A DNA stretch of 64,000 bases from Shinella kummerowiae (lineage in GTDB: Bacteria; Pseudomonadota; Alphaproteobacteria; Rhizobiales; Rhizobiaceae): NCBI RefSeq assembly GCF_009827055.1, contig NZ_WUMK01000003.1:558001-622000 (forward strand), written 5' to 3'. This document shows, piece after piece, positions 47,178-63,434 of this stretch (positions are counted from its first letter, which is position 1; each line of letters begins with the position of its first letter). Made by a program: the position numbers and the translations under genes. The notes beneath the pieces were generated by a model, which made no database searches, was not told the DNA's origin, and saw only the letters and a program-made list of their open reading frames with translations.

Positions 47178-48482
47178 TTACTGCTGCTCGTCGAAGGGCG
47201 GGTAGCCGGCATTGTCCTCGATATCTTCGTCGATCTTCTTCGCCGCCGCCGTCAGGGCATCCTGAGCGTCGTCGCCGTTGAAGATCTTGTCGACGGCCTG
47301 CATGAACGCCGAGGTGATCGTCGGATAGGCCGGGTGCGGCGGGCGCGCGATGGCGGTCTTGGAGGCCTGCTCGAAGGCAACGGCGAGAGGACCGCCCTCC
47401 GCATAGAGCGGGGAATCGGCCGCGAAACTCTTCAGGCCTGGATAAGCGGATTGGGTCTTGGCATATTCGCGGTATTCCTTGTCCTTCAAAAGGAAGCTCA
47501 GGAATTTGCCGGCGATTTCCGGATTCTCCGAGGTCGCGGAAATGCCCCAGATCCAGGTGCCGTTCGGGCTGACGCCCTTTTCGCCGATCTTCGGCAGCGG
47601 CAGCACGACGATATTGTCCTTCATCGCCGCGGCCGCCTCGGCATAGAACCAGTGGCCGCCCATGGCGAGCGCGGCCGGCTGTCCCTCGGCATAAAACTGG
47701 TTGGTGCCGGAGGAGGTGGGAACCACCCAGCCCTTCTTCACCCAATCCTGCATCATGGTCAGCGCCTTGACGCAGGCCTCGCCGTCGAGCGTGCCGCTGG
47801 CGGTCCAGGTTTTGCGGTCGATCAGGTCACAGCCGGCGCTTTCGAGCAGCGGGCCATACGCATATGTGATCCACTCGGTCTTGATGCCGTAACCGCGGAA
47901 CGTGTCGATCGGCCATTTCACGCCGTCGAGCTTGGAAAGCTTTTCGAGATAGCCCTCGAATTCCTCGCGCGTCCAGGCGTCCTCGACGGATTTCGGAATG
48001 CGCGCGCCGATGGCTTCGAGATATTTCTTGTTGCCGTAGAGCACGACCGAGGAATCGGTAAGGCCGATCGCGTACAGCTCCTTGTCGATCGGATAGGTGC
48101 CCTGCGAGATGTTGGATTCCGTCATGTCCTCAAGCAGGTCCGCGTCGACCAGCGGCTTGACCGGCTGCAGGTAGCCCGACCAGACGTAGTTTGCGAGGAA
48201 GGGCGCGTCCAGTTCCATGATGTCGGGCAATTGCTTGGCCATGACGGCGGCGCTGAACTTTTCGTTGTAGGCATCATGCGGCGCGTGGATCAGCTCGACA
48301 TCGACATCCGGATTGGCTTCCTCGAAACGCCGGGCGGCATCGCCATAGGCCTTCACCCAGCCTGGATCGCCCTGGTGCATCATGTGGATGACGGTCTTCG
48401 CCTCCGCGAGGCCGGCAGTCGCCAGCAGCGCGGCGGAAGCGATGAGCGCCGAAAGTAATCGATTACCCATTAACGTCGTCAT
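47178..48482 (-). CDS. Sugar-binding protein of the fructan/sucrose importer
   Basis: Periplasmic receptor of 434 residues. The signal peptide (GNRLLSALIASAALLATAGL) ends near GLAEA at about residue 28, followed by KTVIHMMHQGDPGWVKAYGD. The C-terminal half carries the family 1 pattern (TSSGTNQFYAEGQPAALAMG). The start MTTLMGNR follows AGGAGGAGAATACCA. Unusually, a perfect LacI-type palindrome overlaps codons about 6-9. GH32 in the operon suggests a beta-fructoside ligand. Confidence 0.9.
   Translation of the reverse strand: MTTLMGNRLLSALIASAALLATAGLAEAKTVIHMMHQGDPGWVKAYGDAARRFEEANPDVDVELIHAPHDAYNEKFSAAVMAKQLPDIMELDAPFLANYVWSGYLQPVKPLVDADLLEDMTESNISQGTYPIDKELYAIGLTDSSVVLYGNKKYLEAIGARIPKSVEDAWTREEFEGYLEKLSKLDGVKWPIDTFRGYGIKTEWITYAYGPLLESAGCDLIDRKTWTASGTLDGEACVKALTMMQDWVKKGWVVPTSSGTNQFYAEGQPAALAMGGHWFYAEAAAAMKDNIVVLPLPKIGEKGVSPNGTWIWGISATSENPEIAGKFLSFLLKDKEYREYAKTQSAYPGLKSFAADSPLYAEGGPLAVAFEQASKTAIARPPHPAYPTITSAFMQAVDKIFNGDDAQDALTAAAKKIDEDIEDNAGYPPFDEQQ
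48455..48466. promoter_or_regulatory. LacI-type operator inside the binding-protein gene
   Basis: GTAATCGATTAC is a perfect palindrome downstream of the start codon. It shares TGGGTAATCGAT with the operator before the LacI gene. It could act as a roadblock or looping partner. Confidence 0.65.
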
Positions 48483-48523
48483 TGGTATTCTCCTCCTGTT
48501 GAATGCAGATAGCCCAAGTTTTT

Positions 48524-49534
48524 TCAGACGGATGCCCGTTCCACCAGATGGAACGGCAGTGTGCGCAAATGCGGCTCCTGCAGCTCACCGGCCAGAAGGA
48601 TCTCCATGGCGAGGCGGCCCATGGCGCGGTGCGGCAGGGCCATCGTCGTCAGGGGCGGGTCCAGTCGCGAGGCGAGTTCGACCTGATTGTCGAAACTCGC
48701 CACCGCAATATCGTCGGGTATGCAGAGGCCAGCACGGGCAAGCGCCGCATAGACCTCCATCGCCACGCGGTCATTGCCGCACAGAATGGCGTCCGGCCGG
48801 TCGCCGGAATGGAGCAGCGCCTCTACATGGGAGGCGACGAGGCTTGGCGCACGGTCGCTGTAGACGCTGCGGCGCACGGCCGGGTAGACGCCGAGTGGGG
48901 CAACGCCCGCTTCCGTCAGGGCCGCATGAAAACCCTTTTCGCGCAACACGCCGGCCATGATACCGGGCAGGTTGATGAAGGCGATGCGCCGGCGGCCGGC
49001 GGCGAGGAGATAGCGCACGATCTCGCGCGCGCCGCCCTGCTCGTCCGGCACCAGCGAGGTGATCCGACCCTCTGCCTCGCGGCAGTTGATCATCACCCCG
49101 ACCGCGCCGACGAGCTTTTGCGGCACGGCCACTTCCTTGTGGTACATGGCGGCATAGGCCACGGCACGCGGGCGAAACTGCCGCACCTCGTCGAGGACCG
49201 CACCGATCTCCTGCCCGCTGGAATGGTTGACGGCGAAGACCGCCATGCCGGCGTTACGCGCCGCGCCATCCAATCCGCGCACGATCTCGGTGGCGAAGGG
49301 CGAGGTGATGAGGCCATCCGAGACGACGCCAACCAGCGGCAGCCAGCCCTGGCGCACGCCGCGCGCCGCCAGGTTCGTCACATAGCCGAGTTCTTCCGCG
49401 ATGGACTTGATCTTCAGCCGCGTATCGTCAGACATGCGGGCGGAGCCGCCATGCAACGCACCGGACACCGTCTTCACCGAGACGCCCGCACGCTCCGCAA
49501 TGTCAGAAAGCGATATTGCCACGATCTTCACCAT
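48524..49534 (-). CDS. LacI-family repressor of the fructan/sucrose operon
   Basis: Repressor of about 336 residues. The HTH reads ISLSDIAERAGVSVKTVSGA, then the hinge NLAARGVRQG and a LacI-type sensor domain (VGVVSDGLITSPFATEIVRG through DAILCGNDRVAMEVYAAL). Unlike most local regulators, it lies in the same direction as its operon, 41 bases before the binding-protein gene. The start is ambiguous: the ATG at 49534 touches the AGGAGG sequence, and a GTG at 49531 has better spacing. Matching operators lie before it and inside the next gene. Confidence 0.88.
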   Translation of the reverse strand: MVKIVAISLSDIAERAGVSVKTVSGALHGGSARMSDDTRLKIKSIAEELGYVTNLAARGVRQGWLPLVGVVSDGLITSPFATEIVRGLDGAARNAGMAVFAVNHSSGQEIGAVLDEVRQFRPRAVAYAAMYHKEVAVPQKLVGAVGVMINCREAEGRITSLVPDEQGGAREIVRYLLAAGRRRIAFINLPGIMAGVLREKGFHAALTEAGVAPLGVYPAVRRSVYSDRAPSLVASHVEALLHSGDRPDAILCGNDRVAMEVYAALARAGLCIPDDIAVASFDNQVELASRLDPPLTTMALPHRAMGRLAMEILLAGELQEPHLRTLPFHLVERASV

Positions 49535-49540
49535 CCTCCT

Positions 49541-49558
49541 TGGGTTATCGATTACCCA
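49541..49558. promoter_or_regulatory. LacI-type operator before the repressor gene
   Basis: TGGGTTATCGATTACCCA is symmetric apart from one position pair. It lies just upstream of the repressor's ribosome site and supports autorepression. Confidence 0.7.
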
Positions 49559-50305
49559 ATAATGGAGGCGGACAGGTCCTGTCAAGGAGATATTTCAGCC
49601 TTCCAATGGTAGAGTTTTTGGTGCCTTCCGTAAGGCGTTGAAGGGATTTGAACCACCAACCAGACTATAGCTGATCGTGTTTGACAGATAATTAGAATTT
49701 CGGTGACATTCGGCGCTCTGGCGAGGTAGTCTTCCTGCTTCGCCTCCTCCGGCAGCACGTGCTGGTTGGAGGTGGAGCCGCATTCCTTGGCCAAGGCGAC
49801 CCTTGGCGTCGATTTAGCACAGTCTTTACGGCTGCTTCCCTATTCGAGTACCGAGGTCGTAGCCTCCACAGCCTCGATTCCCGACGCTGCGACTTTCTTC
49901 CCTTCAATTCGCGTCACGACCCGATGGTCTTGTTGCCGTTCATGAAGACGCAGCCGTGGACGTGCGCATGCACGGCGCAGGCTAGAACCTAGCTCCCCAC
50001 ATCACGGCCCTACGGTTTCGCTCGGTCAGATCAGCTGTGACAACAATGCCGATAACGGTGCTACGTTTTGTGTAGTGTCGGCATCCGTCATCCATTTGAG
50101 GGGAAGCCCATCCTTCGACAAGGGCGGTCGCTGGCAAGGCAAGACACTTTCGTTGGCAACGAGCGTTATTGTGCCCTCGAAACCGTCCTCTCTCAGCGTC
50201 AGCGCAGCGCGTTCACTCTTCCTGCTCCGACGATAACGAATGAAGATATCCTTTCGAGCCTTCTAAATGGCGGCATCCGCTACCTGGCGTCTCCGCGCTG
50301 CAGAT
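49559..50305. other. Gene-poor, probably decayed region
   Basis: No convincing complete gene was found. On the minus strand one stretch (about 49670-49795) reads like real protein (CGSTSNQHVLPEEAKQEDYL), but it is interrupted and unrecognised. Other frames give only short, arginine-rich or stop-rich products. The stretch follows the LacI promoter and precedes a truncated RpiR gene, so it may be the scar of a deletion or insertion. No tRNA, complete IS or attachment site could be supported. Confidence 0.6.
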
Positions 50306-50340
50306 CTGCGCCCTGACGACGTTAAGTCGTCCTGGCGCAG
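50306..50340 (-). terminator. Hairpin around the stop of the truncated RpiR gene
   Basis: CTGCGCC and GACGAC pair with GTCGTC and GGCGCAG around the loop GTTAA; two central bases on each side are unpaired. The TAA stop lies in the loop, so the last codons of the RpiR fragment are encoded by the hairpin. No T-run follows. Confidence 0.55.
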
Positions 50341-50606
50341 AAGATCAGATGCTGACGAAAGGCAGCCTTCATCTCTTTGAAACTCCGGTAGCCCGCTTTC
50401 GCGGCCAGACGGATAACAGTTGTCCCTGAAACGCCGCAGGCAGTCGCGACCGACTGCAAGGTTCCGAAGGCGACGATCTCCGGCCGGCTGAGAAGAAGCC
50501 GCATCGCCTGTTCCAGCGAAGCGGGAAAGCCGATGTGCCGCTGCGCAATCTGCCGTTTGAGCTCGATGACACTCGGTGGCGATGTCCTGTTTGCAGATGC
50601 TGACAA
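50322..50606 (-). pseudogene. Truncated RpiR-type regulator (DNA-binding domain only)
   Basis: Protein of 94 residues matching only the HTH_6 part of RpiR regulators: GFPASLEQAMRLLLSRPEIV, then SGTTVIRLAAKAGYRSFKEM. Intact RpiR proteins have about 280 residues with a SIS ligand-binding domain, which is missing. The TTG start at 50606 has GGAGG seven bases ahead, so it could still be translated. It follows the frameshifted iolG-like gene by 30 bases. A DNA-binding-only product could act as a ligand-blind repressor; decay is the simpler reading. Confidence 0.65.
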
Positions 50607-50636: not shown

Positions 50637-51637
50637 CTAGCCGATGAGGCTCGCAATCGAAACCGGCGCGCCGGTTCTCACCGAAAGGGTTGCCGCTTCA
50701 GCCATGGCGAGTGCCGCGACGCCATCGTCCAACGTGACGGGCAGCGGTTTTGCACCGTCGACCGCTTCCACGAAGGCTGCCCATTCCGCGGCATAGGCCG
50801 GCATATAGCGCTCAAGGAAGAAGTAGGTGGGTTTGGCGCCTGTTACACCTTGTGTCGTTGATTTCACCACGGTGTTCTCAAGCATGTTTTGCGCCTGGAG
50901 CAGGCCGTCGGAACCGAGCAGTTCCACGCGTTGGTCATAGCCGTAGACCGCGCGGCGGCTGTTCTTGATGACAGCGATGCGGCCGTCGGCATAGCTGAGT
51001 GTCACCACGGCGGTATCGACGTCGCCCGCGCCACCGATCTCGGGGTCAACGATGGACGAGCCAACGGCTGTTACCGTGGCCGGCGCCCTACCCATGATAA
51101 AATTCGCCATGTCGAAGTCGTGGATCATCATGTCCCGGAAGAGACCGCCCACACCGTGATATAGGAAACGGGCGGCGGCGCGGGATCGAAGGACGTGATG
51201 GAGAGCAGTTCCGGCTTGCCGATCTCGCCCGCATCCACCGCCTTCTTCAGCGTTGAAAAGTTCGGATCGAAACGGCGGTTGAAGCCGATCATTACCGGGC
51301 ATCCCGTCGAAGCGACCGCTTCCTGGCACGCACGGGCACGCGCCAGACTGAGATCGACCGGCTTTTCACAGAGCACTGCCTTTCCGGCGGCGGTCGCCCG
51401 CTCGATCAGGTCGGAATGTGTATCTGTCGACGTGGCGATCAAGACGGCGTCGATCGTTCTGTCCTGGAGAATGTTATCTGTATCGCGCACCTCGGTACCG
51501 TACTGGGCAGCAATTTTTTGGGCAGCAGCCGTGTTGATGTCGGACACGGCCACCAGCGAGCTGCCAGGGTGGCTGGTGATCGCCGTGGCGTGCACGCCGG
51601 CAATGCGTCCGGCGCCGAGAAGACCAACTTTGAGCAT
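50637..51637 (-). pseudogene. Frameshifted Gfo/Idh/MocA (IolG-like) dehydrogenase
   Basis: The 5' part (from 51637) encodes MLKVGLLGAGRIAGVHATAI (NAD-binding), the Lys-containing VLCEKPVDLS and GFNRRFDPNF, then PPPVSYI, where the frame goes wrong near 51151 and stops at 51128. The rest continues in another frame with GGLFRDMMIHDFDMANFIMG through VRTGAPVSIASLIG. The two halves join perfectly if one base is restored at GTGTGGGCGG, giving a normal-length protein of about 333 residues. It would oxidise an inositol-type polyol or sugar. The break is a real mutation or a sequencing error. Confidence 0.85.
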
Positions 51638-51655
51638 AGGATTTTCCTCTTCTGA

Positions 51656-52480
51656 TCAGAGACCGATGTCGGCCTTGAAAGCATTGAATTCCGTGTCGCC
51701 GATCGCGACGTTGTGCTGGGACTGCGGATAGGCACCCGTGTTCACATCCGCGATGAATTCGCGGAAGGCTGCGATGCGTTCCTTCTGCAGCCTGTCGAAT
51801 TCGGCTGCAAAATTGCGATAGGTCTTGGCGTGGCGCGGCCGATGTCCGTCGGTGTGTCCGAGCACGTCTTCCGCAAAAAGATATTGTGCGTCCGCACCCG
51901 GGCCGGCACCCATGCCGAGCATGATCATCGTGGTATTCTTCGCGATCAGTTCGCCGACCCGGTCCGGCACGACCTCCAGCTCCGCCCCGAAGCAGCCGAT
52001 GGCTTCGAGCTGCTTGACGTGCCGGAAAACTCTGGCCGCCTCCTCGGCCGTCTTGCCCACCGCGCGAAACCCGGTCCAGGTAATGTAGGAGGGAATGAGC
52101 CCGACATGGGCGACGACCGGGACATGATTGTCGCAAAGCACCTTCTGGATATCGAGCGAGGCGGCGCAATAGAAGCAGTCGCCGCCCATGGCGGAGAAGT
52201 GAAAGGCGGCGCGCAAATAATCCTCGGCCGTTGCCAGCGGACGCCCCTCGAATTTGCCCCATCCTCCAAAGGGGAGACCGACCTGCACGAAGCAACGGCC
52301 CGCCGCCTCGCGCATCTCGGGGGAGAAGAAGCGCCCCTCGATCGAGAGCATGTGGATGCCCGCAGCATCGGCGGCGGCCGCCTCCTCAATCGTGGTGACA
52401 TAGAGCATTGAAATCTTTTCGCCCCGCGCCTTCATGGCGCGGATGTCGGCGACGGTCGGACGCGTGTTTTTGTGAACCAT
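51656..52480 (-). CDS. PanB-like (ketopantoate hydroxymethyltransferase family) enzyme
   Basis: TIM-barrel protein of 274 residues of the PanB/PEP-mutase superfamily. AHVGLIPSY (124-132) matches the PanB HxGLTPQ segment, Glu169 in LEVVP matches the catalytic glutamate, and LGMGAGPGADAQ matches the GAG loop. The PanB metal site GDS is IEG here (Glu48), so the metal environment differs. Placement between an isomerase and an inositol-dehydrogenase-like gene argues for a specialised aldol/retro-aldol step rather than pantothenate synthesis. The ATG follows the isomerase stop by four bases. Confidence 0.75.
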   Translation of the reverse strand: MVHKNTRPTVADIRAMKARGEKISMLYVTTIEEAAAADAAGIHMLSIEGRFFSPEMREAAGRCFVQVGLPFGGWGKFEGRPLATAEDYLRAAFHFSAMGGDCFYCAASLDIQKVLCDNHVPVVAHVGLIPSYITWTGFRAVGKTAEEAARVFRHVKQLEAIGCFGAELEVVPDRVGELIAKNTTMIMLGMGAGPGADAQYLFAEDVLGHTDGHRPRHAKTYRNFAAEFDRLQKERIAAFREFIADVNTGAYPQSQHNVAIGDTEFNAFKADIGL

Positions 52481-52484
52481 GGGA

Positions 52485-53264
52485 TTACACCGTGAATGCG
52501 TTGCGGAAGGCCTCGAGGGCGGCCTCGGGATTGCCCGAAGCGAAGGCCTCCATGCCGACCGGGCCGGCATATCCCATGGCCTTCAGCGCCCTGGCGATGC
52601 CATGCCAGTTCACCTCGCCGGTACCCGGTTCACAGCGTCCCGGCACGTCGGCCACCTGAATTTCGCCGATCCACGGCAGACATTTACGGCAGAGTTCGAT
52701 CAGGTTCCCCTCGCCGATCTGGGCATGGTAGAGGTCGAGATTGAGCCGCAAACGCGGATGATCGATGCTCGACACCAGAGCAAGCGTATCCTCAGCCCGC
52801 CCGAATGGCACGCCGGGATGATCGACGGGCAGATTGAGGTTTTCCAACGTGAAGATGACACCTTCCGCTTCGGCCATGTCGGCCACACGGCAAAGTGTAT
52901 CGCGCGCCTTTAGCCACATATCACCTGTCACCACCTCGATAGGCTGGACCGGGAGCCCGCGCTCTCCCAACCCCGTGCCGTGCAGGTTCAACCGCTGGAC
53001 GCCGAGACGCTTGCCGATCTGCGCGGTTTCCCGCGCGGTGCGCAGAAGCTCGGCAGCACCTTCGTCATCCGTCAGGCGACCGGCGAGATAACCGTTCATG
53101 ATGGTGAAGGTGGCGCCAGTGGCTTCGAGCTTTGCCAGATCATGCTCCGGCCAGTTCCAAAGGCCGACGCCGAAACCCATTTCCGTGAGGCGGGAGGCTC
53201 GCCATTCGATGGCTCGCTCCCGCCAGATCATTTCGGCGCAAGCCGCCAATGCAAACTGTGTCAT
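52485..53264 (-). CDS. TIM-barrel sugar isomerase/epimerase (hydroxypyruvate isomerase-like)
   Basis: AP-endonuclease-2-fold protein of 259 residues. Metal-ligand candidates are Glu in FTLENLNLP, Asp in LNLDLYHAQIGEGN, Gln in IGEIQVADVPGRCEPGTGEV and Glu in VGMEAF. The VADVPGR..PGTGE pattern is typical of hydroxypyruvate isomerase (Hyi) and relatives such as MocC and IolI. It lies downstream of a Rieske ferredoxin gene, four bases before the PanB-like gene. The substrate is probably a keto-inositol or keto-sugar; not resolved. Confidence 0.87.
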   Translation of the reverse strand: MTQFALAACAEMIWRERAIEWRASRLTEMGFGVGLWNWPEHDLAKLEATGATFTIMNGYLAGRLTDDEGAAELLRTARETAQIGKRLGVQRLNLHGTGLGERGLPVQPIEVVTGDMWLKARDTLCRVADMAEAEGVIFTLENLNLPVDHPGVPFGRAEDTLALVSSIDHPRLRLNLDLYHAQIGEGNLIELCRKCLPWIGEIQVADVPGRCEPGTGEVNWHGIARALKAMGYAGPVGMEAFASGNPEAALEAFRNAFTV

Positions 53265-53268
53265 GTCA

Positions 53269-53580
53269 TCAAATCTCTATGAAAACGTCGCCACCCTCGA
53301 CCTTGACCGGCCAGGTGCGAAGGTTAATGCAGGCAGGCGCGCGCATCGCCTCTCCGGTCTTGTAGTCGAATTGCGCGCTGTGTTTTGGACACTCGATGAT
53401 GCCGTCCATCACCAGACCGTCGGCGAGGTGCACATGCTCGTGTGTGCAGATTCCGTCGACGCAGAAGAATTCGTCTTCGGGGCTGCGGATCACCAGAAAG
53501 GTGCGTCCGTCATGATCGAAACGGATCTGCTCTTCGAGCTCGACGTCTTCGGTTGCGCAAGCGCGGGTCCAGGTCCCCAT
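53269..53580 (-). CDS. Rieske [2Fe-2S] ferredoxin, MocE-like
   Basis: Electron carrier of 103 residues. The Rieske cluster motif is CTH at 45-47 and CPKH at 64-67 (Cys45, His47, Cys64, His67), spaced as in small Rieske ferredoxins of dioxygenase and MocE type. The start MGTWTRA at 53580 follows AAAGGATGAAGAC. It probably passes electrons to the desaturase-family oxygenase encoded at 56688-57710. No ferredoxin reductase gene is present, so one must be supplied from elsewhere. Confidence 0.88.
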   Translation of the reverse strand: MGTWTRACATEDVELEEQIRFDHDGRTFLVIRSPEDEFFCVDGICTHEHVHLADGLVMDGIIECPKHSAQFDYKTGEAMRAPACINLRTWPVKVEGGDVFIEI

Positions 53581-53623
53581 GTCTTCATCCTTTGGCAGTT
53601 CAGGGTATGTTGATGCGGTGGCG

Positions 53624-54451
53624 TCAGGCCGATGCACCGGCGTGTTGCGGCGCATGGCCGTCATGTGTCGCCATGTAGCCATCGATCTGGGCCTCCAGTT
53701 CCGCCATCGTTTCGCCACCGGCCATCAGGTCGGTTATCTCTTCGCGCGTTTTTTCCCCCTTACGGAAATCGGCGGCGACGGCGCCACGGATCAACACCGC
53801 GAAGTGATCACCCACCGCCATGGCATGCATGACCTGGTGCGTGATGAAGACGACGGCGAGACCCCGCCGCTTCGCCTCGTTGACGATCCTCAAGACATGG
53901 GTCGCCTGCTTCACGCCAAGCGCTGCCGTCGGCTCATCTAGGATCAGAACCTTCGCGCCGAAATGCACCGCGCGGGCAATGGCGAGGGACTGCCGTTCAC
54001 CGCCAGAAAGCCCGCCAACCAGCCTGTCGCCATCCTCGATCCGGGTAATGCCGAAGTCGCGGACGGCCTTCACGGCGATCTCGTTCGCCTTCTTGCGATC
54101 GAAGATCTTGAACGGCCCCCAGCCCTTGGTCGGCTCGACGCCAATGAAGAACGAGCGACCGATGCTCATCAGCGGGAAGGTGCCACCGAACTGATGGACG
54201 GTCGCGATACCCCGGTTGCTGGCATCGCGGGGCCCAGTGAATTCGATGGGCCTGCCGTCCATCTCGATCGTGCCGGAGTTCGGGCGATACACGCCGGAAA
54301 GCGTCTTGATGAGCGTCGACTTGCCGGCGCCATTGTCGCCGAGCAGGCAAAGGACTTCGCCTGGACAGATATCCAGCGAGATGTCCTGGAGGACGTCGAT
54401 CGGGCCAAAGGACTTGCAGATGTTTCTGAGCTTCAGGATGGGTGTAGACAT
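53624..54451 (-). CDS. Ribose-type ABC importer ATPase, single domain (FrcA-like)
   Basis: ATPase of 275 residues. Walker A is GDNGAGKST at 38-46, the signature LSGGERQSLAIARAV, Walker B LILDEPTAALGVKQ and switch ITHQVMHAMAVGD. It has one nucleotide-binding domain, unlike the two-domain RbsA (~500 residues), and matches the short FrcA type. The Q-loop region reads VHQFGGTFPLM. The start MSTPILKL overlaps no gene but follows the permease stop by eight bases. It serves the importer encoded at 54460-56569. Confidence 0.9.
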   Translation of the reverse strand: MSTPILKLRNICKSFGPIDVLQDISLDICPGEVLCLLGDNGAGKSTLIKTLSGVYRPNSGTIEMDGRPIEFTGPRDASNRGIATVHQFGGTFPLMSIGRSFFIGVEPTKGWGPFKIFDRKKANEIAVKAVRDFGITRIEDGDRLVGGLSGGERQSLAIARAVHFGAKVLILDEPTAALGVKQATHVLRIVNEAKRRGLAVVFITHQVMHAMAVGDHFAVLIRGAVAADFRKGEKTREEITDLMAGGETMAELEAQIDGYMATHDGHAPQHAGASA

Positions 54452-54459
54452 GATCGACC

Positions 54460-55515
54460 TCACTTCTTCTTCGGCGAATAGGAGAGCGCCATGCTGCGGA
54501 AGGTGTTGTTCATGAGCACCGCGAGAAGCAGCATCACGCCGATGATCAGGCTCGACCAGTTGCGGTCGAAGGTCGTGAAGTAGATACCCTGATTGACCAC
54601 GGCGAAGGTGATCGTACCGAAGAAGATGCCGACGATGGAGCCGAAGCCGCCGGTGAGCAGCACGCCGCCCACGACCACCGAGATGATCGAGTTGAAGATG
54701 AAGGACATGCCGGCGGAAACCTGGGCCGAATTGAACAGGATCGCCTGGCACATGCCGACGAAGGCCGCACTCGTCGCGGAAAGGACAAACAGCACAATCG
54801 TCAGGCGGGATGTTGGAATGCCGGCATTGCGTGCGCTGATCTTGTCGCCGCCCATGGCGAAGATCCAGTTGCCATAGGGCGAGTAGTGGATGACGTAGAT
54901 ATAGATGGCGGTCAGTGCCAGCCACCAGAATATGATGACCTGGAAGGTGTTGGCCACGAACTGGCCGAAGAGAAACTTCGCCAGTTCCGGCGCCTTGAGA
55001 GCGACGCTGGTGGTGCCTGTGAGCAGAACGGACAGGCCGAGCACGAGTCCGGCGACGGCAAAGAGTGTGCCGAGCGTGACGATGAGGGACGGCACGTTGG
55101 TGCGCACCACAAGAAAGCCGTTCACCAGCCCGACGACGACGCCCAGGCCAAGGGTCGCGGCGATACCGAGCCAGATCGGGAGGCCGTAGTAGCCGGAGAT
55201 GATCGCGACCGTCATGGAACCGGCCGGGATCATAGAGCCGATCGAGATGTCCAGTTCCCCGGCAATCATCAAAAGTCCGATCGGAAAAGCGACGATCCCG
55301 AGGTTGGCTGCAACGTTCAGCCAGCTTGCGGCACCTGCGGGCTTCAGGAAGTCGATGCTTCCGAAAGCGATAAAAAAGACGAAGACACCGAAAAGACCAA
55401 GAAAGGCGCCTGCCTCGGGCCTGCGGAAAAGACCGCCGATAGAAAAGCGTGTTGCCGATGATGACGCCGGCGCATTGGCGACGACAATTGGTTGGCTTGC
55501 GGTTTTCGAATTCAT
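54460..55515 (-). CDS. Ribose-type ABC permease (FrcC/RbsC-like)
   Basis: Inner-membrane permease of 351 residues with about ten helices, for example GLFGVFVFFIAFGSIDFL and IFWWLALTAIYIYVIHYSPYG. The family signature AGELDISIGSMIP lies after the second helix, and FAMGGDKISARNAGIPTSRL precedes the C-terminal part. The start at 55515 follows AAAGGGGAACAATC. It takes substrate from the binding protein at 55595 and works with the ATPase downstream. Confidence 0.92.
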   Translation of the reverse strand: MNSKTASQPIVVANAPASSSATRFSIGGLFRRPEAGAFLGLFGVFVFFIAFGSIDFLKPAGAASWLNVAANLGIVAFPIGLLMIAGELDISIGSMIPAGSMTVAIISGYYGLPIWLGIAATLGLGVVVGLVNGFLVVRTNVPSLIVTLGTLFAVAGLVLGLSVLLTGTTSVALKAPELAKFLFGQFVANTFQVIIFWWLALTAIYIYVIHYSPYGNWIFAMGGDKISARNAGIPTSRLTIVLFVLSATSAAFVGMCQAILFNSAQVSAGMSFIFNSIISVVVGGVLLTGGFGSIVGIFFGTITFAVVNQGIYFTTFDRNWSSLIIGVMLLLAVLMNNTFRSMALSYSPKKK

Positions 55516-55594
55516 GATTGTTCCCCTTTCCGGTCGCCCGGATGTTACGAAGCCGCTCCCTGGGGAGGTGCAGGGAGCGGCTGGCGAGCGCGTG

Positions 55595-56569
55595 TTAACG
55601 TGCGCCCTTCGACACGCCAGCAAGCGTCGATTCGATATTCGACGCATCGACGATGCCTGGTCCGGTCAGCACCGGCCTCACCGGCAAATCGGTTCCGAAG
55701 TCGATGTGGGAGGCGAGCAGAGACACGGCGAGCAGAGACTGGAGATAGGGCTGCTGATCGATCGCAAAGAGCTGTGATCCGTTCTTGATGCGATCAAGGC
55801 TTGCCTCGTTGAAATCAAACGAGCCGAGCTTGACGGCCTCAACCTTGCCAGCCTGCTGAATGCCGCTCGCTGCCGCATCGGCATCACCGGCGGCGATCGT
55901 GATGACGCCGTCGATCGTGCCATCCTGTGAAAGCGTCGCCTTGACGGCCTCCGCGATCGCCGTCGGATCACCGAAGCTGGTTGCCGGCAGCGGCAGTTGC
56001 TTGCCGGCACCACCGGCCTTGGTGACACCGTCGATCACGCCCTTGCAGCGTGCTTCCTGGTTGGCACTGCCCGGCAGCGTGTTGACGCACAGCACGTTCT
56101 TCTGGCCGTTCTTACCGAAATAGTCGCCGCCGGCGGCACCAGCGATATACTCGTCGGACCCGACATAGTTGATTGCGCCTAGCTCCTTGGCCTTTTCGAG
56201 GGAACCGGCGTTCATCAGGATAACCTTGATGCCGCCGTCGACGGCCGCCTTGATCGCTTCATCTTCCGCTTCGGGAACCCAATTTGGAATGACGATGCCG
56301 CTGACGCCCTGGCTGATGGCGGTGCGCACGAGACCCGCCGCATCCGGGCCGAGATTGTCGTAGGTCTGGAGTTGCAGGTAACTGACCTTGCCGCCATTCG
56401 CCTCGACGACGAGCCGGCTGTCATCGACACCCTTCTTGATCTTCGTCCAGAAGGCATCGTCGGTCTTGCCGCCGACGACTGCGATGTCGGCGGCTTGCGC
56501 GATACTTGCGGCAAGACAGATGGCAGCCGTCATTGCGAGCGCCCTGGTCATGGTGGTCAGTCTGGTCAT
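55595..56569 (-). CDS. Ribose/rhizopine-type periplasmic binding protein
   Basis: Binding protein of 324 residues with a signal peptide ending near ASIAQA (about residue 26). The mature sequence opens ADIAVVGGKTDDAFWTKIKK and continues with Peripla_BP_4 features (YDNLGPDAAGLVRTAISQGV, GIVIPNW). It belongs to the sugar/polyol cluster of which MocB is a member, so a polyol-amine or sugar is plausible. The start at 56569 follows GGGGGAGGAAACCCG. The gene follows the desaturase gene by 118 bases. Confidence 0.88.
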   Translation of the reverse strand: MTRLTTMTRALAMTAAICLAASIAQAADIAVVGGKTDDAFWTKIKKGVDDSRLVVEANGGKVSYLQLQTYDNLGPDAAGLVRTAISQGVSGIVIPNWVPEAEDEAIKAAVDGGIKVILMNAGSLEKAKELGAINYVGSDEYIAGAAGGDYFGKNGQKNVLCVNTLPGSANQEARCKGVIDGVTKAGGAGKQLPLPATSFGDPTAIAEAVKATLSQDGTIDGVITIAAGDADAAASGIQQAGKVEAVKLGSFDFNEASLDRIKNGSQLFAIDQQPYLQSLLAVSLLASHIDFGTDLPVRPVLTGPGIVDASNIESTLAGVSKGAR

Positions 56570-56687
56570 CGGGTTTCCTCCCCCTGTGTCCGCCGAGTGG
56601 CGGGTTGCAAATGTTGAATGAATGGCTCGAAGCAGCCCTTCTCTTGTCGGCCCCCGCCTCCCCGCGGGTGCCGAGCGCCGGCTGAGA

Positions 56688-57710
56688 TCAGGAGTTCGCG
56701 CGCGCCGTCTTGGCGTTCATGCGCTCCTTCTTCTTCTGGAAGCGGGCCTGCATCTGCACGTCGCCGTCTTTTGTGCCGTCGTGCCAGGTGCCGAACCACT
56801 TATCGAGCGGGATCAGGCCATCGCCGCCGTAGTTCACCTCAAAATACTTGTGGTGCAGGTAGTGGGCGTAGGCATGCGTATCGAGCGGCGTTTCCTCGGT
56901 GATTTCCAGTTTGTCGAAGCCGATGTGACCGTTGACGGCACCAAAGCCTGCAATGTGAAGCTGGAACATCGCGACGATCGGGTTGGACGGGATGACGAGG
57001 TGCCAGAAGGCGACCGCGTGGTAGAGAAACCCCTCGACCGGATGCATGGAGAGCGAAGACCACGGCGACGGATTGACCGAATTGTGGTGCACCGAATGGA
57101 TCCAGCGATAGAGCGGACCCCAATGGATGAGCCGGTGGATGAAGAAGAAGTGCACCTCGTGGATCATCGGGGCCACGGCGACGAGGAAGGCGAGATAATA
57201 GGGATTGTCTGCCCAGCTCAGCCACGGCACCCAGCCATTGGCGAACACCCAGAGGAACACGACCTCGACCAGCGTCCACAGCGGGATCGAGATGAAGAAC
57301 GAGCGCAGGAAATTATCGATATTCTGGCTTTTGAACCAGAAGACGTCGGACGGCTGTTCGCCGGGGAACTTGGCGTTGTACTTGAAGCGATTGCCCTGCT
57401 TGCGCTTGACGTAGAAGAGCAGTTCGACCGAACCGTAGAAGACGAAGATGGCGCCCGCATTCACGGCGTAAAGCCAAAGCGGCCAACCCCAGCTCAGCGT
57501 CTTCATCACCGCGACCTCCGGCACGACGTAGAACCAGTAAAGCAGGGCCGTCGCCATGTGGAAGGCATTCCACGGCCAGACATACTCCGGCAGCCATTTC
57601 AGCACGGTCATCAGCTTGGGCGGCCAGGCCCAGAACGGCGCAACCTCGATATGTCCGTTCGGTGCCCAGTCACCGCGCTTGTTACGAGTTCCAAAATTGT
57701 GGTCGTCCAT
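56688..57710 (-). CDS. Sterol desaturase/fatty acid hydroxylase family oxygenase
   Basis: Membrane di-iron oxygenase of 340 residues (PF04116-like). The histidine boxes are HRLIH (192-196), HSVHH (205-209) and HYLHH (283-287), with PSPWSSLSMHPVEGFLYH between. Several hydrophobic helices surround them. It probably hydroxylates or demethylates the imported compound, drawing electrons from the Rieske ferredoxin encoded at 53269-53580. MocD, in rhizopine catabolism, plays a similar part, but this protein belongs to the sterol-desaturase family. The start follows GGAGGCAGGACG. First gene of the operon, divergent from LacI. Confidence 0.87.
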   Translation of the reverse strand: MDDHNFGTRNKRGDWAPNGHIEVAPFWAWPPKLMTVLKWLPEYVWPWNAFHMATALLYWFYVVPEVAVMKTLSWGWPLWLYAVNAGAIFVFYGSVELLFYVKRKQGNRFKYNAKFPGEQPSDVFWFKSQNIDNFLRSFFISIPLWTLVEVVFLWVFANGWVPWLSWADNPYYLAFLVAVAPMIHEVHFFFIHRLIHWGPLYRWIHSVHHNSVNPSPWSSLSMHPVEGFLYHAVAFWHLVIPSNPIVAMFQLHIAGFGAVNGHIGFDKLEITEETPLDTHAYAHYLHHKYFEVNYGGDGLIPLDKWFGTWHDGTKDGDVQMQARFQKKKERMNAKTARANS

Positions 57711-57962
57711 CGTCCTGCCTCCGGCGCGCGTCTAGCCTTGTCGTCAAAGGAGGGAGAAACGCTGCTCGCGCGCTGTCGCGGGCACAGCACGACGTTCCTC
57801 GGGCGAAAGCCCAAAGTGCGCAGTTCCGACGATGTCGAAGGCAGTTCCTCCCGGCGTGTGCACCGCATTCGCGTCACCCGCCGTCCTGTGAACAGACAAT
57901 GCCAACTTGACGTCTATTAAATCAAGGTGCATTTCTCTTGGAGGGTACGAACGTATCATTCG

Positions 57963-58003
57963 TCTCACGAGAGCTCGAAAATGGTACAATTTATCTCATG
58001 AGG
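57963..58003. promoter_or_regulatory. Paired TCTCA.GAG operator candidates
   Basis: TCTCACGAGA (57963-57972) and TCTCATGAGG (57994-58003) are similar palindromes with centres 31 bases apart, about three helical turns. They precede the GTG start of the LacI regulator and the divergent operon. Confidence 0.55.
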
Positions 58004-58008
58004 AATCC

Positions 58009-59037
58009 GTGAGAAGACCAACCATCCGCGATCTCGCCGAGGCCGCCGGCGTGTCCATCGCCACGACCAACCGGGTTTTGTCCGGTGCAGACAATGTGAG
58101 CGGCGGCACGCGGGAGAAGGTGCAGGCTGCGGCCACCACGATCGGCTTCTACGGACTGGGGGCGATACAAGCTCGCAACGCGGCAGCGCGTCCCAAATAC
58201 CGTTTCGGCGTGCTTCTTCTCCAGCCGCACCGCCCGTTCTACAGACTGGTCGCGCGCGCCCTGATGGACGCAGCCGCGCAAGCCACCTCGGCCGACATCG
58301 ATCTCAGGATCGAGCATCTGGAAGACCTCTCGCCACAGAACACCGCCGATCGGGCGCTGGCGCTTGCCAAGGAATGCGACGCCATCTGCATTACCACCGC
58401 TGTCCACCCCGTCGTCACGCAGGCGCTCGCCGACATACAGACGAAGGGCATCCCCGTGTTCGCGCTGATCTCCCAGCTCGCCGCAACGGGCCAGATCCAC
58501 TATATCGGGCTCGACAACTGGAAAGTCGGCAGAACCGCCGCCTGGGCGTTCGATCACATCTGCAAGGTTCCCGGCAAGATCGGCATCCTCATGGGCAACC
58601 CGCGCTATCGCAACCAGGAAATGAACGAGACCGGCTTCCGTTCATATTTTCGCGAGCACGCCCGAGACTTCGTTTTGCTCGAGCCTCTCTCGACATTCGA
58701 ATCCTCGGCCGTTGCCCAGGAAATGACAGAGCGTCTTCTACACGACCATGCCGATCTCGCGGGCTTGTATGTCGCCGGTGGGGGCATCAGCGGTGCCCTC
58801 GCCGCCCTGCGCGCCAGCGACCGGGCTGGCAAACTGATCGTGGTCGGTTACGAGCTGATGGACAATGTCAGGGCCGCTCTGCTCGACGGAACCATAACCC
58901 TCTCCATCGCCCATCCCCTGACGCAACTGGCAAGCGAAACGATCAGCGGCATGACGCGAGCGATGGCGTCCAACGGTGAGAATGTCAGTCATACCAGGAT
59001 AGTGCCGTTTGACATCTACACGCGGGAAAATCTGTAG
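58009..59037 (+). CDS. LacI-family regulator of the moc-like operon
   Basis: Regulator of 342 residues. The HTH reads PTIRDLAEAAGVSIATTNRV, and the sensor domain is of the Peripla_BP_4 type (YRFGVLLLQPHRPFYRLVAR; YVAGGGISGALAALRASDRA), the same fold as the operon's binding protein. The start is GTG 58009, with AGGA five bases ahead. An upstream extension of 34 codons contains no ribosome site. It is divergent from the oxygenase operon and paired TCTCAnGAG sites lie between. The ligand is probably the imported compound or its product. Confidence 0.88.
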   Translation: MRRPTIRDLAEAAGVSIATTNRVLSGADNVSGGTREKVQAAATTIGFYGLGAIQARNAAARPKYRFGVLLLQPHRPFYRLVARALMDAAAQATSADIDLRIEHLEDLSPQNTADRALALAKECDAICITTAVHPVVTQALADIQTKGIPVFALISQLAATGQIHYIGLDNWKVGRTAAWAFDHICKVPGKIGILMGNPRYRNQEMNETGFRSYFREHARDFVLLEPLSTFESSAVAQEMTERLLHDHADLAGLYVAGGGISGALAALRASDRAGKLIVVGYELMDNVRAALLDGTITLSIAHPLTQLASETISGMTRAMASNGENVSHTRIVPFDIYTRENL

Positions 59038-59773: not shown

Positions 59774-61129
59774 TTAACTCAAAAGCGTCTCAAGCGCACC
59801 GCTGGCAGCGAGAACATCAATGTCGCGGCCCCGCGGACAGGAAACGAGTATACCGAGAGGAAGGCCATTTGTGTCCGTGCCGCATGGCAGCGAGACGCCA
59901 CACCAGTCGAGAAAATTGCCGATCAGCGTATTGCGCAGGGTCTTCCCGTTCATCTGAAAGAACAGGTCTTCGTCGTCAACGAGCGGCTGGAGGGCCGGCG
60001 CCACATGCGGCAATGTCGGACTCAGCACGAGTTCCGTCGCCCCCAGCCGCGCCTCGAAGGCGGCGATCAGGCGTTCACGGGCGGCAAGGGTTTCCACATA
60101 GTCGGACAGCGTGATTTTTTCACCTAGCAGCGTGCGCTTGACGACCCGCGGGTCCATGTCCGCCGCCTCCGGCCCGGTGATGCGGGCGCGGTGAAGCACA
60201 TAGGCCTCTGCGGTAACCAGGGCTCCGTGTTTTGCCATGAGGTCGAAAATCGCGGAGAATTCCGGAAAAGCGGCGCGGCGGATACGGGCGCCGGCGCGCA
60301 CCAAATGCTCCACCGTGGCCTCGAAGGCCGAAATGACCGCCGCCTCCGCACCGTCGAAGACAATCGTCTCGGGAATGACGAAAGAAAGGTCGGCCGGATC
60401 GAAACGCGGCAGCACATCCGCCGCCGGCAGGCCGCGCATCGCCGCGTCGATCCAGGCGGCATCTTGAACGGTACGGCAAAGAGGGCCGAGGGAATCGAGG
60501 CTTTTGGCCAGCGGAAACACCCCTTCCATTGAATAGCGTCCGCGGGTCGCCTTGTAGCCCACGACGCCGTTGAAAGCCGCGGGGATGCGCAGGGATCCAC
60601 CTGTGTCCGTGCCGATGGAAACAGGCACGAGCCCGGCGGCAACCGCCACGCCTGACCCGGATGAGGAACCGCCCGGAATGCGATGTTCACCGGCGGGGGA
60701 CGCGGGGTTGCGGGGCGTACCGTAATGGGGGTTGATGCCAAGACCTGAAAAGGCGAATTCACTCATGTTCACGCGCCCGACGTTGACCATTCCCGCGTCG
60801 GTAAGCGCATGCACCACGGCGGCGTCTTTCGTTGCCGGCGCGCTGTCCCTCAGTACACTGGAACCGGCGGTCGTCGGCAGACCTTCAAGATCAAAGAGGT
60901 CCTTCCAGGCGACCGGTATACCGTCCAGAGTGCCACGCGAGCGACCTCCACGCAGTCGCTTGCGTGCGGCTTCCGCCTCCGCCCTTGCCCGCACCGCTGT
61001 CACGGTCGTGAAGATCGTCTGGTCCGCGTGTCCCGCGATGCCCGCCAGGGTCTCCTCCGCCAGATCGACAGGATCAAGCGAGCCGGATTGCAGGAGCACG
61101 GAGAGCTGGGCAATCGAGCGAGCCGGCAT
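59774..61129 (-). CDS. Amidase signature enzyme
   Basis: Amidase of 451 residues that hydrolyses a carboxamide or carbamate-like bond. The Ser-cisSer-Lys triad is visible: Lys76 in AWKDLFD, Ser155 in PGGSSSGSG and nucleophile Ser179 in GTDTGGSLRIPAA. The order and spacing (about 80 and 24 residues) are normal for the family. The C-terminal LVSCPRGRDIDVLAASGALE is also typical. It has no signal peptide. Its start lies two bases after the PotD-like gene stop. The cluster of metal GTPase and deacetylase suggests a nitrogen-compound pathway, substrate unknown. Confidence 0.9.
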   Translation of the reverse strand: MPARSIAQLSVLLQSGSLDPVDLAEETLAGIAGHADQTIFTTVTAVRARAEAEAARKRLRGGRSRGTLDGIPVAWKDLFDLEGLPTTAGSSVLRDSAPATKDAAVVHALTDAGMVNVGRVNMSEFAFSGLGINPHYGTPRNPASPAGEHRIPGGSSSGSGVAVAAGLVPVSIGTDTGGSLRIPAAFNGVVGYKATRGRYSMEGVFPLAKSLDSLGPLCRTVQDAAWIDAAMRGLPAADVLPRFDPADLSFVIPETIVFDGAEAAVISAFEATVEHLVRAGARIRRAAFPEFSAIFDLMAKHGALVTAEAYVLHRARITGPEAADMDPRVVKRTLLGEKITLSDYVETLAARERLIAAFEARLGATELVLSPTLPHVAPALQPLVDDEDLFFQMNGKTLRNTLIGNFLDWCGVSLPCGTDTNGLPLGILVSCPRGRDIDVLAASGALETLLS

Positions 61130-61131
61130 GG

Positions 61132-62364
61132 TCAGATGTCCTTTTCTGCGCGCCCGACCAACTGCATCCAGCGGCGGACGAGATAGTTGTGTTCATCCAT
61201 GGTGGTGTTCCACACGGCAATGCCGTTGGCGCGCTGCCAGTAAGAGCCGCCGCTGCGCACAGCGCCGCGCTTGATGCGGACCGTGCCGTCCGGTCCCGGC
61301 AGGTCCTCCCGCGCCGGAAGGCCCTCGTACCAGTAGTCCCATTCCGCCGCCGTCATGTAACGGCGCGATCGCTCGGGCGTGGAAATGTAGTAGCCCTGGC
61401 GGGCGACCACCGCGCCCGGCCAACCGGAAATCCACCAATTGAGATATTCATAGGCGACGTCGAGCATGCGGCCCGAGAGGTTGCGGGAGAGGCACAAGCC
61501 ACCGTGCCAAGCGCGGTAGCCTTCGGCCGGCGCGGCCTGATCTACGGGAAAGCCACGGCTGTTCAGGATGCCGATACCCGTCGACCACATGCTCTGGATG
61601 TCGGTCTCGCCTTCGATCATCAGGCTCGCGGCATCCTCCGCGGTGCGCCAGAAGCTGCGGAAGAACCCCGCCTTGCGCCGCGCCTCGAGAATATCCACCA
61701 GCTGGTCGATCTCGGCGATGGTCATGTTGCCGATATTGCCGAAGCTCATGAGACCTGCCGCCTGCGCGGCAAGCGCGGCATCGAAAATGCCTATTGCCGG
61801 TTCATCGACGAGCGCGGCACGACCGCTCCAGCGCGCGTCGAGCAAAGCGGCCCAGCTCGCCATCGGCGGAAGCTGCCCTGCCGCATCGCTGCGATAGGCG
61901 AAACTGTCGAAATTGTGTGTCGTCGGCAGCATGGAGATGCGGCCAGTCGGCGTATCGCCGAGCGCAAGGCTCGGCTGGACGTAGAGCTTGCGAGCCGGCA
62001 CGTCACCCTGCCCCATGCGGGCGCCTGGGCCGATCTGGCCGGTCTTCGTCAGGTCGTTGATCTCGTCCCACAAGGCAATACGGGAGACCTCGATCGGCTG
62101 GATGGCACGCCAGTACCAAACGATATCGAGATTGTGGAAACACTGGTCGTAGATATCGTAGCTGTCCGGCTCCTGCGCGGCCTTGTGCTGCGTCACGATG
62201 AAATCGTTGTTGTCGAAGCTGACCTCGATACCAAGATCGGCCTCCGCTTTCACCCGCAACTCTTCCAGCAGGGAGATGGCGGTGCCAAGCACGCGCAGCT
62301 TAGGCTTGCCGGCCGTATGGAGAGCCGGGGTTGCGGGTGCCGGTTTCAAGGAATGTTTATTCAT
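61132..62364 (-). CDS. PotD-like solute-binding fold protein without signal peptide
   Basis: Protein of 410 residues resembling family 1 binding proteins of spermidine/putrescine or Fe3+ type (KLRVLGTAISLLEELRVKAE, SYDIYDQCFHNLDIVWYWRA, WAALLDARWSGRAALVDEPA, VAYEYLNWWISGWPGAVVA). The N-terminus, MNKHSLKPAPATPALHTAGK, has no hydrophobic signal core and no upstream frame adds one. The start ATG overlaps the GTPase stop (TGATG). It may remain in the cytoplasm as a sensor or chaperone, or use a non-Sec route. No permease or ATPase accompanies it here. Confidence 0.7.
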   Translation of the reverse strand: MNKHSLKPAPATPALHTAGKPKLRVLGTAISLLEELRVKAEADLGIEVSFDNNDFIVTQHKAAQEPDSYDIYDQCFHNLDIVWYWRAIQPIEVSRIALWDEINDLTKTGQIGPGARMGQGDVPARKLYVQPSLALGDTPTGRISMLPTTHNFDSFAYRSDAAGQLPPMASWAALLDARWSGRAALVDEPAIGIFDAALAAQAAGLMSFGNIGNMTIAEIDQLVDILEARRKAGFFRSFWRTAEDAASLMIEGETDIQSMWSTGIGILNSRGFPVDQAAPAEGYRAWHGGLCLSRNLSGRMLDVAYEYLNWWISGWPGAVVARQGYYISTPERSRRYMTAAEWDYWYEGLPAREDLPGPDGTVRIKRGAVRSGGSYWQRANGIAVWNTTMDEHNYLVRRWMQLVGRAEKDI

Positions 62365-63434
62365 CAAGGGCTCTGGGCGTTGCGGGCCTGCGCTGCCGCC
62401 TCTGGCTGCGGGTGGGCCTCGACCTTCCCGGCAAGCGCGAAGGCGTTGAACGAGCGTTTCAACAGGTTCGCATCGAGACCGTCAACAATAAAGACGATGC
62501 GGGAAGCGCGTTCGTTGAAGGGCCACGCATCCATATGCACAGGCGGATGAACGAGATGCTGCACGCCATGCACCGCAACGGGGCGTTCCTCGCCGGAAAG
62601 GTTGAGAATACCCTTCACACGCAGCACACGATCGCCATGGCGATTGAGGAGCATGGTGAGCCAGACACCGAAGCCCGTCCAGTCTATCTGCTCATCGACG
62701 ACGATGACGAAGGAGGAGATGGCCGATCGGTGCACAGCACCGTCCGCCGTCTGGAGCGCAGCCGGGGCGTCGCAGTAAAAGCCGCTCGCCGATTGCAATT
62801 GGGCGGAACGATGCACCGCACCGTCGGCAAACAACGTTTCGGCATCGGGACCATGTGGTGTTGCGATATGGCAGATCGCATCCGGGTTCAGCTGGCGGAG
62901 CCGCGTGATGAGCGTATCCGGCGCAACATCACAGAGATCCGTCTTCGTGATGACGATGCGGTCTGCAATGGCGGCCTGCCGGTTTGATTCCATATAGGTA
63001 TCGAGTTGCAACTGGCCGTTGACCGCATCGACGGTCGTCACCACGCTGCCGACACGAAAATGATGGCGCAGCACGGGGTCGGACTTCAACGTCGAAAGGA
63101 CCGGGAAGGGATCGGCAAGCCCTGTGCTCTCGATGATCACGCGGGCGAACGGCGGCACCAGGCCGCGTTCACGCTTGGAATGGAGCTCACGCAAGGCATC
63201 CGCCAGTTCACCACGCACGGTGCAGCAAACGCAGCCCGATTGCAGCAGCACCATCGTATCGTCGATGCGCTCGACGAGGTGATGGTCGAGGCCCACCTCT
63301 CCGAACTCGTTGATCAGCACGGCAGTATCGGACAGCGCCGGATCCGTCAGCAGGCGTTTCAAAAGCGTGGTCTTGCCCGACCCGAGGAAGCCGGTGAGCA
63401 GGTGGACGGGGGTGAATGCGGGTATATCAGTCAT
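62364..63434 (-). CDS. COG0523/CobW-family metal-trafficking GTPase
   Basis: G3E P-loop GTPase of 356 residues. Walker A is GFLGSGKTT (15-23), the metal motif GCVCC lies at 67-71, ESTGLADP follows, and ITKTDL is the guanine motif. Such proteins insert zinc, cobalt or nickel into client enzymes. Unusually, a 35-residue stretch of the linker holds two copies of ADGAVHRSA. Its start overlaps the small CxxC gene by eight bases. Clients could be the adjacent amidase or the polysaccharide deacetylase-like enzyme. Confidence 0.9.
   Translation of the reverse strand: MTDIPAFTPVHLLTGFLGSGKTTLLKRLLTDPALSDTAVLINEFGEVGLDHHLVERIDDTMVLLQSGCVCCTVRGELADALRELHSKRERGLVPPFARVIIESTGLADPFPVLSTLKSDPVLRHHFRVGSVVTTVDAVNGQLQLDTYMESNRQAAIADRIVITKTDLCDVAPDTLITRLRQLNPDAICHIATPHGPDAETLFADGAVHRSAQLQSASGFYCDAPAALQTADGAVHRSAISSFVIVVDEQIDWTGFGVWLTMLLNRHGDRVLRVKGILNLSGEERPVAVHGVQHLVHPPVHMDAWPFNERASRIVFIVDGLDANLLKRSFNAFALAGKVEAHPQPEAAAQARNAQSP

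Follow-up and report, generated by a model that had tools for sequence, protein, structure and literature searches.

Operon Organization and Proposed Function

The window analysed here is a stretch of 64,000 nucleotides from the 6.34 Mb genome of Shinella kummerowiae (contig NZ_WUMK01000003.1, positions 558,001 to 622,000). It carries a single minus-strand operon (57710-50637 in window positions) with a divergent gene for a LacI-family regulator, which we read as an O-methyl-cyclitol demethylation unit whose PanB-like protein would load formaldehyde onto tetrahydrofolate (THF). We give this reading as a whole an even chance. The assignment of a demethylation module is fairly secure, while the chemistry of the PanB-like protein is what we infer. 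Profile searches recovered, in one operon with the regulator (Table 1), the oxygenase, Rieske ferredoxin, importer, isomerase, PanB-like and IolG genes that an earlier note, made from the sequence alone, had described. The gaps along the operon are, in gene order, 118, 79, 8, 43, 4, 4 and 18 bases. The regulator probably starts at a GTG near 58009, because its helix-turn-helix (HTH) domain begins only at residue 39 of the open reading frame (ORF).

According to the proposed mechanism, the ribose-type ATP-binding cassette (ABC) transporter would import an O-methylated cyclitol or polyol, and the FA_hydroxylase would hydroxylate its methyl group with electrons delivered from the MocF reductase via the MocE ferredoxin. 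The hydroxylated methyl would leave as formaldehyde, and IolG together with the TIM barrel would channel the freed inositol-type ring to inositol catabolism. The PanB-like protein would not act as a ring aldolase; it would condense formaldehyde with THF, the half of the PanB reaction that concerns the one-carbon unit. FolD and PurU would then convert methylene-THF to formate, and LacI would repress the operon until the substrate arrives.

The moc-like oxidative demethylation suggested in the earlier note remains the probable function of the module: MocE scores above its model cut-off, MocF is present in relatives, and IolG from an intact relative reaches 432.6 bits against a cut-off of 355 for the inositol 2-dehydrogenase equivalog TIGR04380. 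The oxygenase matches only PF04116 and shows, by reading of its translation, the three histidine motifs HRLIH, HSVHH and HYLHH; it belongs, as had been noted, to a family other than that of the desaturase-type MocD. IolG, the TIM barrel, a binding protein that distantly resembles rhizopine-binding proteins and the iol genes found near the operon in some relatives point to an O-methyl-cyclitol substrate. FA_hydroxylase enzymes are known as a family that usually hydroxylates lipids or sterols, and the oxygenase might accordingly hydroxylate a ring or chain carbon with no demethylation, the PanB-like protein being unrelated to formaldehyde. We consider this improbable, as a sugar importer, IolG and one-carbon genes share the operon and several kinds of oxygenase surround one PanB-like clade (see below).

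Conservation of the operon was assessed in the best 80 of at least 527 relatives retrieved by a scan of named genomes with the PanB-like protein. Of the 80 loci, 26 have the eight operon genes in identical order and 37 the first seven, so that the operon is not a chance assembly; the genes are kept together and not scattered, in line with the expectation of a shared operon. The supposed novelty of the gene combination stands in part: the operon is real, but it is already spread through Rhizobiaceae, Mesorhizobium and many Rhodobacterales. Carriers among the best 80 include Rhizobium, Shinella, Ensifer, Labrys and Mesorhizobium besides the Rhodobacterales, and a Gemmobacter plasmid has all eight genes with iolG whole. 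The closest among the matches listed is Shinella sp. CPCC 101442, whose PanB-like protein is 96% identical.

The PanB-Like Protein Forms a Family Separate from True PanB

The only Pfam family found in the window PanB-like protein is PF02548, and public records annotate the family as 3-methyl-2-oxobutanoate hydroxymethyltransferase. The protein stays below both NCBI cut-offs for PanB (TIGR00222, 86.2 against 207.55 bits; NF001452, 114.3 against 272 bits), and a true PanB is encoded elsewhere in the genome. A first count gave 184 PanB-like and 9 true PanB ORFs; dereplication left 65 PanB-like sequences, to which the window protein was added (66 rows), and the true set rose to 11 after two additions. 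The two groups lie on separate sides of the tree with a support of 100, in a quick search that yielded long branches.

The six positions D45, D84, K112, E114, H136 and E181 of Escherichia coli PanB are, we assume, those engaged in Mg2+ binding, 2-oxo-acid binding and base catalysis. D84, K112 and E114 are found in none of the 66 PanB-like rows, whereas H136 and E181 are present in all of them; D209 is kept in 65 and D45 in two, in a gappy stretch of the alignment. Among the true PanB rows, D45 and K112 are present in 11/11 and D84 and E114 in 10/11. The PanB-like family has its own invariant residues, a glutamate at position 179 and a histidine at position 229 (E. coli numbering; 66/66 rows, against 1 and 0 of the 11 true PanB). 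In the numbering of the window protein E167 and H217 are invariant (66/66) and W135 and R235 nearly so (65/66). The family thus shares with ketopantoate hydroxymethyltransferase (KPHMT) the fold, H136, E181 and D209, but differs by the loss of D84, K112 and E114, the gain of E167, H217, W135 and R235, and its separate clade. A single AlphaFold model of the PanB-like protein has a predicted local distance difference test (pLDDT) value of 84.5, with a low-confidence stretch at residues 130-137; solved KPHMTs are its nearest folds in the PDB (TM-scores 0.60-0.67).

A function as a second KPHMT is extremely improbable. The PF02548 score exceeds its cut-off, and in three genomes (G042, G512, G616) the PF02548 search finds the PanB-like copy only, with no true PanB; the specific PanB models are nevertheless missed, catalytic residues are lost, and a true PanB is present in the window genome and in 7 of 10 genomes tested. 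The protein was accordingly rejected as a true PanB on model cut-offs and residues. The earlier note had proposed a PanB-like aldolase for retro-aldol cleavage of the demethylated, oxidised polyol, a role compatible with the resemblance of the model, at lower rank, to lyases such as 2-methylisocitrate lyase and with the position of the gene between those for the TIM barrel and IolG. This role is now very unlikely: D84, K112 and E114, part of the Mg2+/2-oxo-acid site, are lost in 66/66 rows, the family sits beside varied oxygenases, among them desaturases or PhyH-type enzymes in stretches where inositol references give one weak match in 26, and IolG with the iol genes already provides a known route for the ring. 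A ring aldolase was also discarded as a candidate on the ground that the gene is found next to oxygenases without inositol genes.

Locus L299 (G424:C1:961001) has a second PanB that falls inside the true clade, with residues D, C, K, Q, H and E at the six positions and a PhyH-type match nearby. In L082 (G679) a single contig carries a true panB at 1234-2094 and, about 7 kb away, a PanB-like gene at 9054-10193.

Genomic Neighbourhood of PanB-Like Genes

A PanB-like ORF was identified in 79 of the 80 close loci (L112 had none and was dropped), and 14 more loci were dropped for short upstream DNA. In the remaining 65, with at least 6.5 kb upstream, an FA_hydroxylase or MocD gene was found in 59, MocE in 63, the TIM barrel in 55, IolG in 51 and MocF in 19. 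Among the 65 dereplicated homologues, which form a different set, 49 have an oxygenase gene within 9 kb: 40 of the FA_hydroxylase or MocD type, eight of the Fe/2-oxoglutarate type only and one of the Rieske type only. The identical 9-kb test applied to true panB loci gave one with an oxygenase (PhyH type) in nine, and none with FA_hydroxylase or MocD. With 50 rows of the tree labelled by their nearest oxygenase, a minimum of 11 partner changes is needed. Single loci bring in further partners: a VanA-like Rieske oxygenase in L082, TauD and PhyH in L085, and PhyH in L089.

The association extends to bacteria with small genomes. A PanB-like match was found in 132 of 150 genomes sampled from one order of such bacteria. 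In this first group an FA_desaturase-type oxygenase adjoins the PanB-like gene in 30 of the 30 best-scoring loci, two of which are cut by contig ends; in a second, 21 of 23 hand-chosen loci carry genes of the FA_desaturase, FA_hydroxylase or PhyH type, and these are often joined by GH4, gluconolactonase or dehydratase genes as well as sugar importers. Inositol and TIM-barrel references searched against 26 small-genome stretches gave only one weak match. Two PanB-like genes stand in tandem next to PhyH-type genes in eight small-genome loci (L077, L247, L250, L253, L256, L259, L264 and L266), an arrangement that suggests a two-subunit form.

The PanB-like gene stays constant across changes of oxygenase and carbon skeleton, so its product should act on what these reactions share, the formaldehyde of oxidative demethylation. 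The FolD and PurU genes of the operon in Rhizobiaceae and on a plasmid of Neotabrizicola (Rhodobacterales), where the PanB-like gene is followed directly by folD and purU, indicate that the one-carbon unit passes via THF there; oxidation of methylene-THF by FolD and PurU is established (PMC3891541 and PMC4543880, in excerpt). Since methylene-THF is already handled in PanB chemistry, a formaldehyde:THF enzyme could sensibly have arisen from a PanB that had lost its keto-acid site. According to the sections of He et al. concerned (PMC7073904), the spontaneous reaction of formaldehyde with THF is too slow for growth (deduced doubling time, about 24 days), and PanB is named as a possible promiscuous catalyst; a "spontaneous reaction" is also starred, for one of the steps, in the legend to a one-carbon scheme of SAR11 (PMC3160333). 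The choice between enzymatic and slow spontaneous loading is presented as an open question in those sections of PMC7073904, and the operon now names a concrete candidate family. It would also tie FA_hydroxylase and desaturase oxygenases to the demethylation of methylated sugars and cyclitols.

We further propose, tentatively and with somewhat more doubt than confidence, that the whole PanB-like clade is a dedicated family that would convert free formaldehyde to 5,10-methylene-THF and so be the folate equivalent of formaldehyde-activating enzymes. Across a range that reaches from rhizobia to bacteria with small genomes in the same class, it would serve as a plug-in to several kinds of demethylating oxygenase: membrane di-iron enzymes of two Pfam families, Fe/2-oxoglutarate enzymes and, in single loci, Rieske enzymes. 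If this is true, many annotations as 3-methyl-2-oxobutanoate hydroxymethyltransferase need changing.

A number of observations weigh against the loading of formaldehyde onto THF by this family. FolD and PurU are mostly absent from the neighbourhood: one or the other was found beside the PanB-like gene in 10 of the 65 close loci that have at least 6.5 kb upstream, and neither in any of the 26 small-genome stretches. No listed oxygenase is in reach of 16 of the 65 dereplicated homologues, some of which lie at contig or record ends (the oxygenase of L040 sits across the record start), and none lies within 9 kb in L080, L081, L084, L086, L087 and L090. The oxygenase counts are partly circular, because the Rieske, PhyH, TauD and desaturase queries were taken from loci found with the PanB-like protein, and FA_hydroxylase and desaturase may be remotely related to each other. 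The formaldehyde-oxidation gene product FrmA is missing (E 1e-60) from 18 of 20 PanB-like-bearing small genomes, but also from 5/5 small genomes without a PanB-like gene, so that its absence does not discriminate; FrmA is moreover present in the host genome. Fhs was present in 26/26 genomes tested. A related cluster of the same genome (cluster B, below) has no PanB-like gene despite its oxygenase, MocE and MocF, and none is annotated in related loci of Sinorhizobium meliloti pSymA, Rhizobium ACO-34A and Paracoccus yeei; the PanB-like protein is therefore not obligatory. We know of no activity for it, and no paper among the matches listed in the open-licence literature of PubMed Central (PMC) links it to demethylation or formaldehyde capture. 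For true PanB, deletion of panB and ltaE in E. coli had no effect on formaldehyde-dependent growth (PMC7073904, in the sections concerned). In the two FrmA-bearing genomes of the 20 PanB-like carriers, FrmA is encoded some 10-11 kb away from the closest PanB-like gene found (G1096:C5:17508 and G1112:C1:226364).

Formaldehyde might instead be captured on a keto acid or a sugar-derived enol, which would make the protein an assimilating aldolase. Such a role would fit the association with oxygenases, the majority of loci without FolD or PurU, and the PanB variants reported to condense formaldehyde with 3-methyl-2-oxobutanoate (PMC7073904, same sections). The loss of the 2-oxo-acid and metal residues and the operon genes for FolD and PurU in Rhizobiaceae and Rhodobacterales speak for THF instead, and we regard the other acceptors as unlikely.

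Decay of the Window Copy and Sister Clusters

In five relatives (L091, L093, L095, L096 and L098) the operon extends into MocF and PurU and/or FolD; a small HTH_6 ORF precedes MocF in L093 (Rhizobium sp. 16-488-2b), and FolD of L091 (Shinella sp. CPCC 101442) is also short. Window DNA matches L091 at 88% over 59037-50647 and beyond this point in short pieces only. The tail persists as scraps of MocF, PurU and FolD (50211-49642) and the iolG frame is split into halves that correspond, in alignment with the IolG of a relative, to its residues 1-162 and 163-333; the window copy is thus a decaying example of an operon preserved elsewhere. Devoid of its own MocF, PurU, FolD and unbroken iolG, it is either non-functional or leans on paralogues. 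Possible stand-ins in the genome are MocF in two related clusters, IolG at C1:901593 (50%) and three PurU (72%).

These two clusters and the lost tail had escaped the earlier note. Cluster B (C22:363k) encodes LacI, an FA_hydroxylase (61%), MocE, a binding protein, MocF and one further protein that matches no Pfam family; in similar clusters its counterparts carry a sugar-isomerase annotation. Cluster C (C1:891k) encodes an FA_desaturase-type oxygenase, MocE, MocF, a PanB-like protein (54-56%), a divergent LacI, a TIM barrel, a transporter and IolG. Its layout fits the LacI gene (FixV-like) described beside and divergent from mocDEF in rhizobia (PMC3538637, in excerpt).

Table 1. Features of the operon, its regulator and its degraded tail, in window positions.
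Feature	Position	Strand	Evidence and remarks
LacI-family regulator	58009..59037	+	Divergent; ORF 57907-59037; PF00356 and PF13407; equivalent position in relatives
Probable LacI operator, imperfect	57982..57998		2 mismatches to TGATAYNNNNNRTATCA
FA_hydroxylase/sterol-desaturase-family di-iron oxygenase, presumed O-demethylase	56688..57710	-	PF04116 65.6 bits, cut-off 31
Periplasmic sugar-binding protein (Peripla_BP_4)	55595..56569	-	PF13407
ABC permease, ribose type (BPD_transp_2)	54460..55515	-	PF02653
ABC ATPase	53624..54451	-	PF00005
MocE-family Rieske ferredoxin	53269..53580	-	TIGR02377 159.2 bits, above cut-off 136.15
Xylose-isomerase-like TIM barrel (MocC/Hyi/IolI-like; AP_endonuc_2)	52485..53264	-	PF01261 108.1 bits
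PanB-like protein, proposed formaldehyde-to-THF enzyme (Pantoate_transf)	51656..52480	-	PF02548 125.8 bits, cut-off 28.7
IolG, N-terminal part	51128..51637	-	TIGR04380 203.5 bits over profile 1-165 (equivalog cut-off 355); frame breaks near 51160
IolG, C-terminal part, different frame	about 50637..51140	-	TIGR04380 211.3 bits over profile 165-329 (equivalog cut-off 355)
Small RpiR-type HTH_6 ORF	50322..50606	-	PF01418; tblastn; homologue of 105 amino acids in L093
MocF ferredoxin reductase remnant	50062..50211	-	tblastn with MocF of L091, L093 and L096
PurU formyl-THF deformylase remnant	49923..50009	-	tblastn; second search recovered a scrap with two stops
FolD remnant	49642..49908	-	tblastn with L093 FolD, 8e-7

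Relation to moc and Other Known Systems

The rhizopine genes mocDEF, mocBA, mocC and mocR feed inositol catabolism (Bahar 1998, as mentioned in part of PMC10107442), and MocD has been described as the rhizopine oxygenase (PMC2593844, in excerpt). The window operon, as preserved in relatives, resembles this system in its oxygenase with MocE and MocF, a periplasmic binding protein, a MocA/IolG-type dehydrogenase, a TIM barrel and a feed into inositol catabolism. It differs in having an FA_hydroxylase and not an FA_desaturase-type MocD, a LacI regulator and not MocR, a binding protein that scores 160.6 bits against the cut-off of 420 of the rhizopine model NF052284, additional PanB-like, PurU and FolD genes, and a mere remnant of MocF where L091 and others have it at full length. 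Strict membership in moc was rejected on the oxygenase family, the regulator and the binding-protein cut-off. A genuine moc region was sought through NF052284 in 151 genomes of the bacterial family: three pass, and the three regions hold ABC genes with no match to MocD, MocE or PanB-like proteins; two of them carry IolG-type genes.

A variant of moc for rhizopine (3-O-methyl-scyllo-inosamine) would account for MocE over its cut-off, the resemblance of the binding protein to the rhizopine model, IolG and the TIM barrel, and would accord with the role described for MocD (PMC2593844) and with LacI beside mocDEF in rhizobia (PMC3538637). It is decidedly unlikely in view of the low score of the binding protein, the other oxygenase family, the exchange of MocR for LacI and the spread into Rhodobacterales; none of the operon genes, moreover, would serve for removal of the amino group.

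The rhizobial arrangement of mocDEF with a divergent FixV-like LacI and an epimerase (PMC3538637, in excerpt; L044), to which cluster C conforms, shares with the window operon the divergent LacI, the order oxygenase-MocE-MocF and the TIM barrel; a PanB-like gene is present in cluster C and on S. meliloti pSymB. Unlike the window operon, these loci have an FA_desaturase-type oxygenase and a different importer. The pAO1 nicotine genes purU-mabO-folD likewise place PurU and FolD within a demethylation operon, but there the oxidase itself makes methylene-THF, and the passages of PMC3891541 on this operon mention no PanB-like gene.

A second parallel to the proposed formaldehyde:THF enzyme is DmmD of dimethylamine monooxygenase, proposed to turn oxygenase-made formaldehyde into methylene-THF (PMC4543880, in excerpt). 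The likeness would be one of role, given the PanB fold of the protein studied here. The two would therefore be analogues, DmmD presumably having a GcvT-like fold.

Operator-Like Repeat and Neighbouring Genes

The gap between the LacI and FA_hydroxylase genes contains, in relatives, a common inverted repeat, TGATAY-N5-RTATCA. Of 295 loci, 12 carry exact copies of the operator, each of them inside this gap and about 10 bases before lacI. The window copy is weak evidence on its own, because the pattern is not enriched in the window (3 matches against 1.89 expected).

Other minus-strand genes of the window, assigned by eye, flank the operon. Amidase-like, extracellular binding protein-like and CobW/G3E-GTPase-like ORFs adjoin it at 59774-63434. 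On the other side (42520-49585), the ORF list shows an ABC importer, a 583-amino-acid GH32-like (levanase/sucrase) protein and LacI, which resemble a fructan or sucrose operon. Farther away, the segment 32669-39398 holds multicopper oxidase, cupredoxin-like, TolC-like and two-component ORFs and resembles, also by eye, a copper-response cluster.

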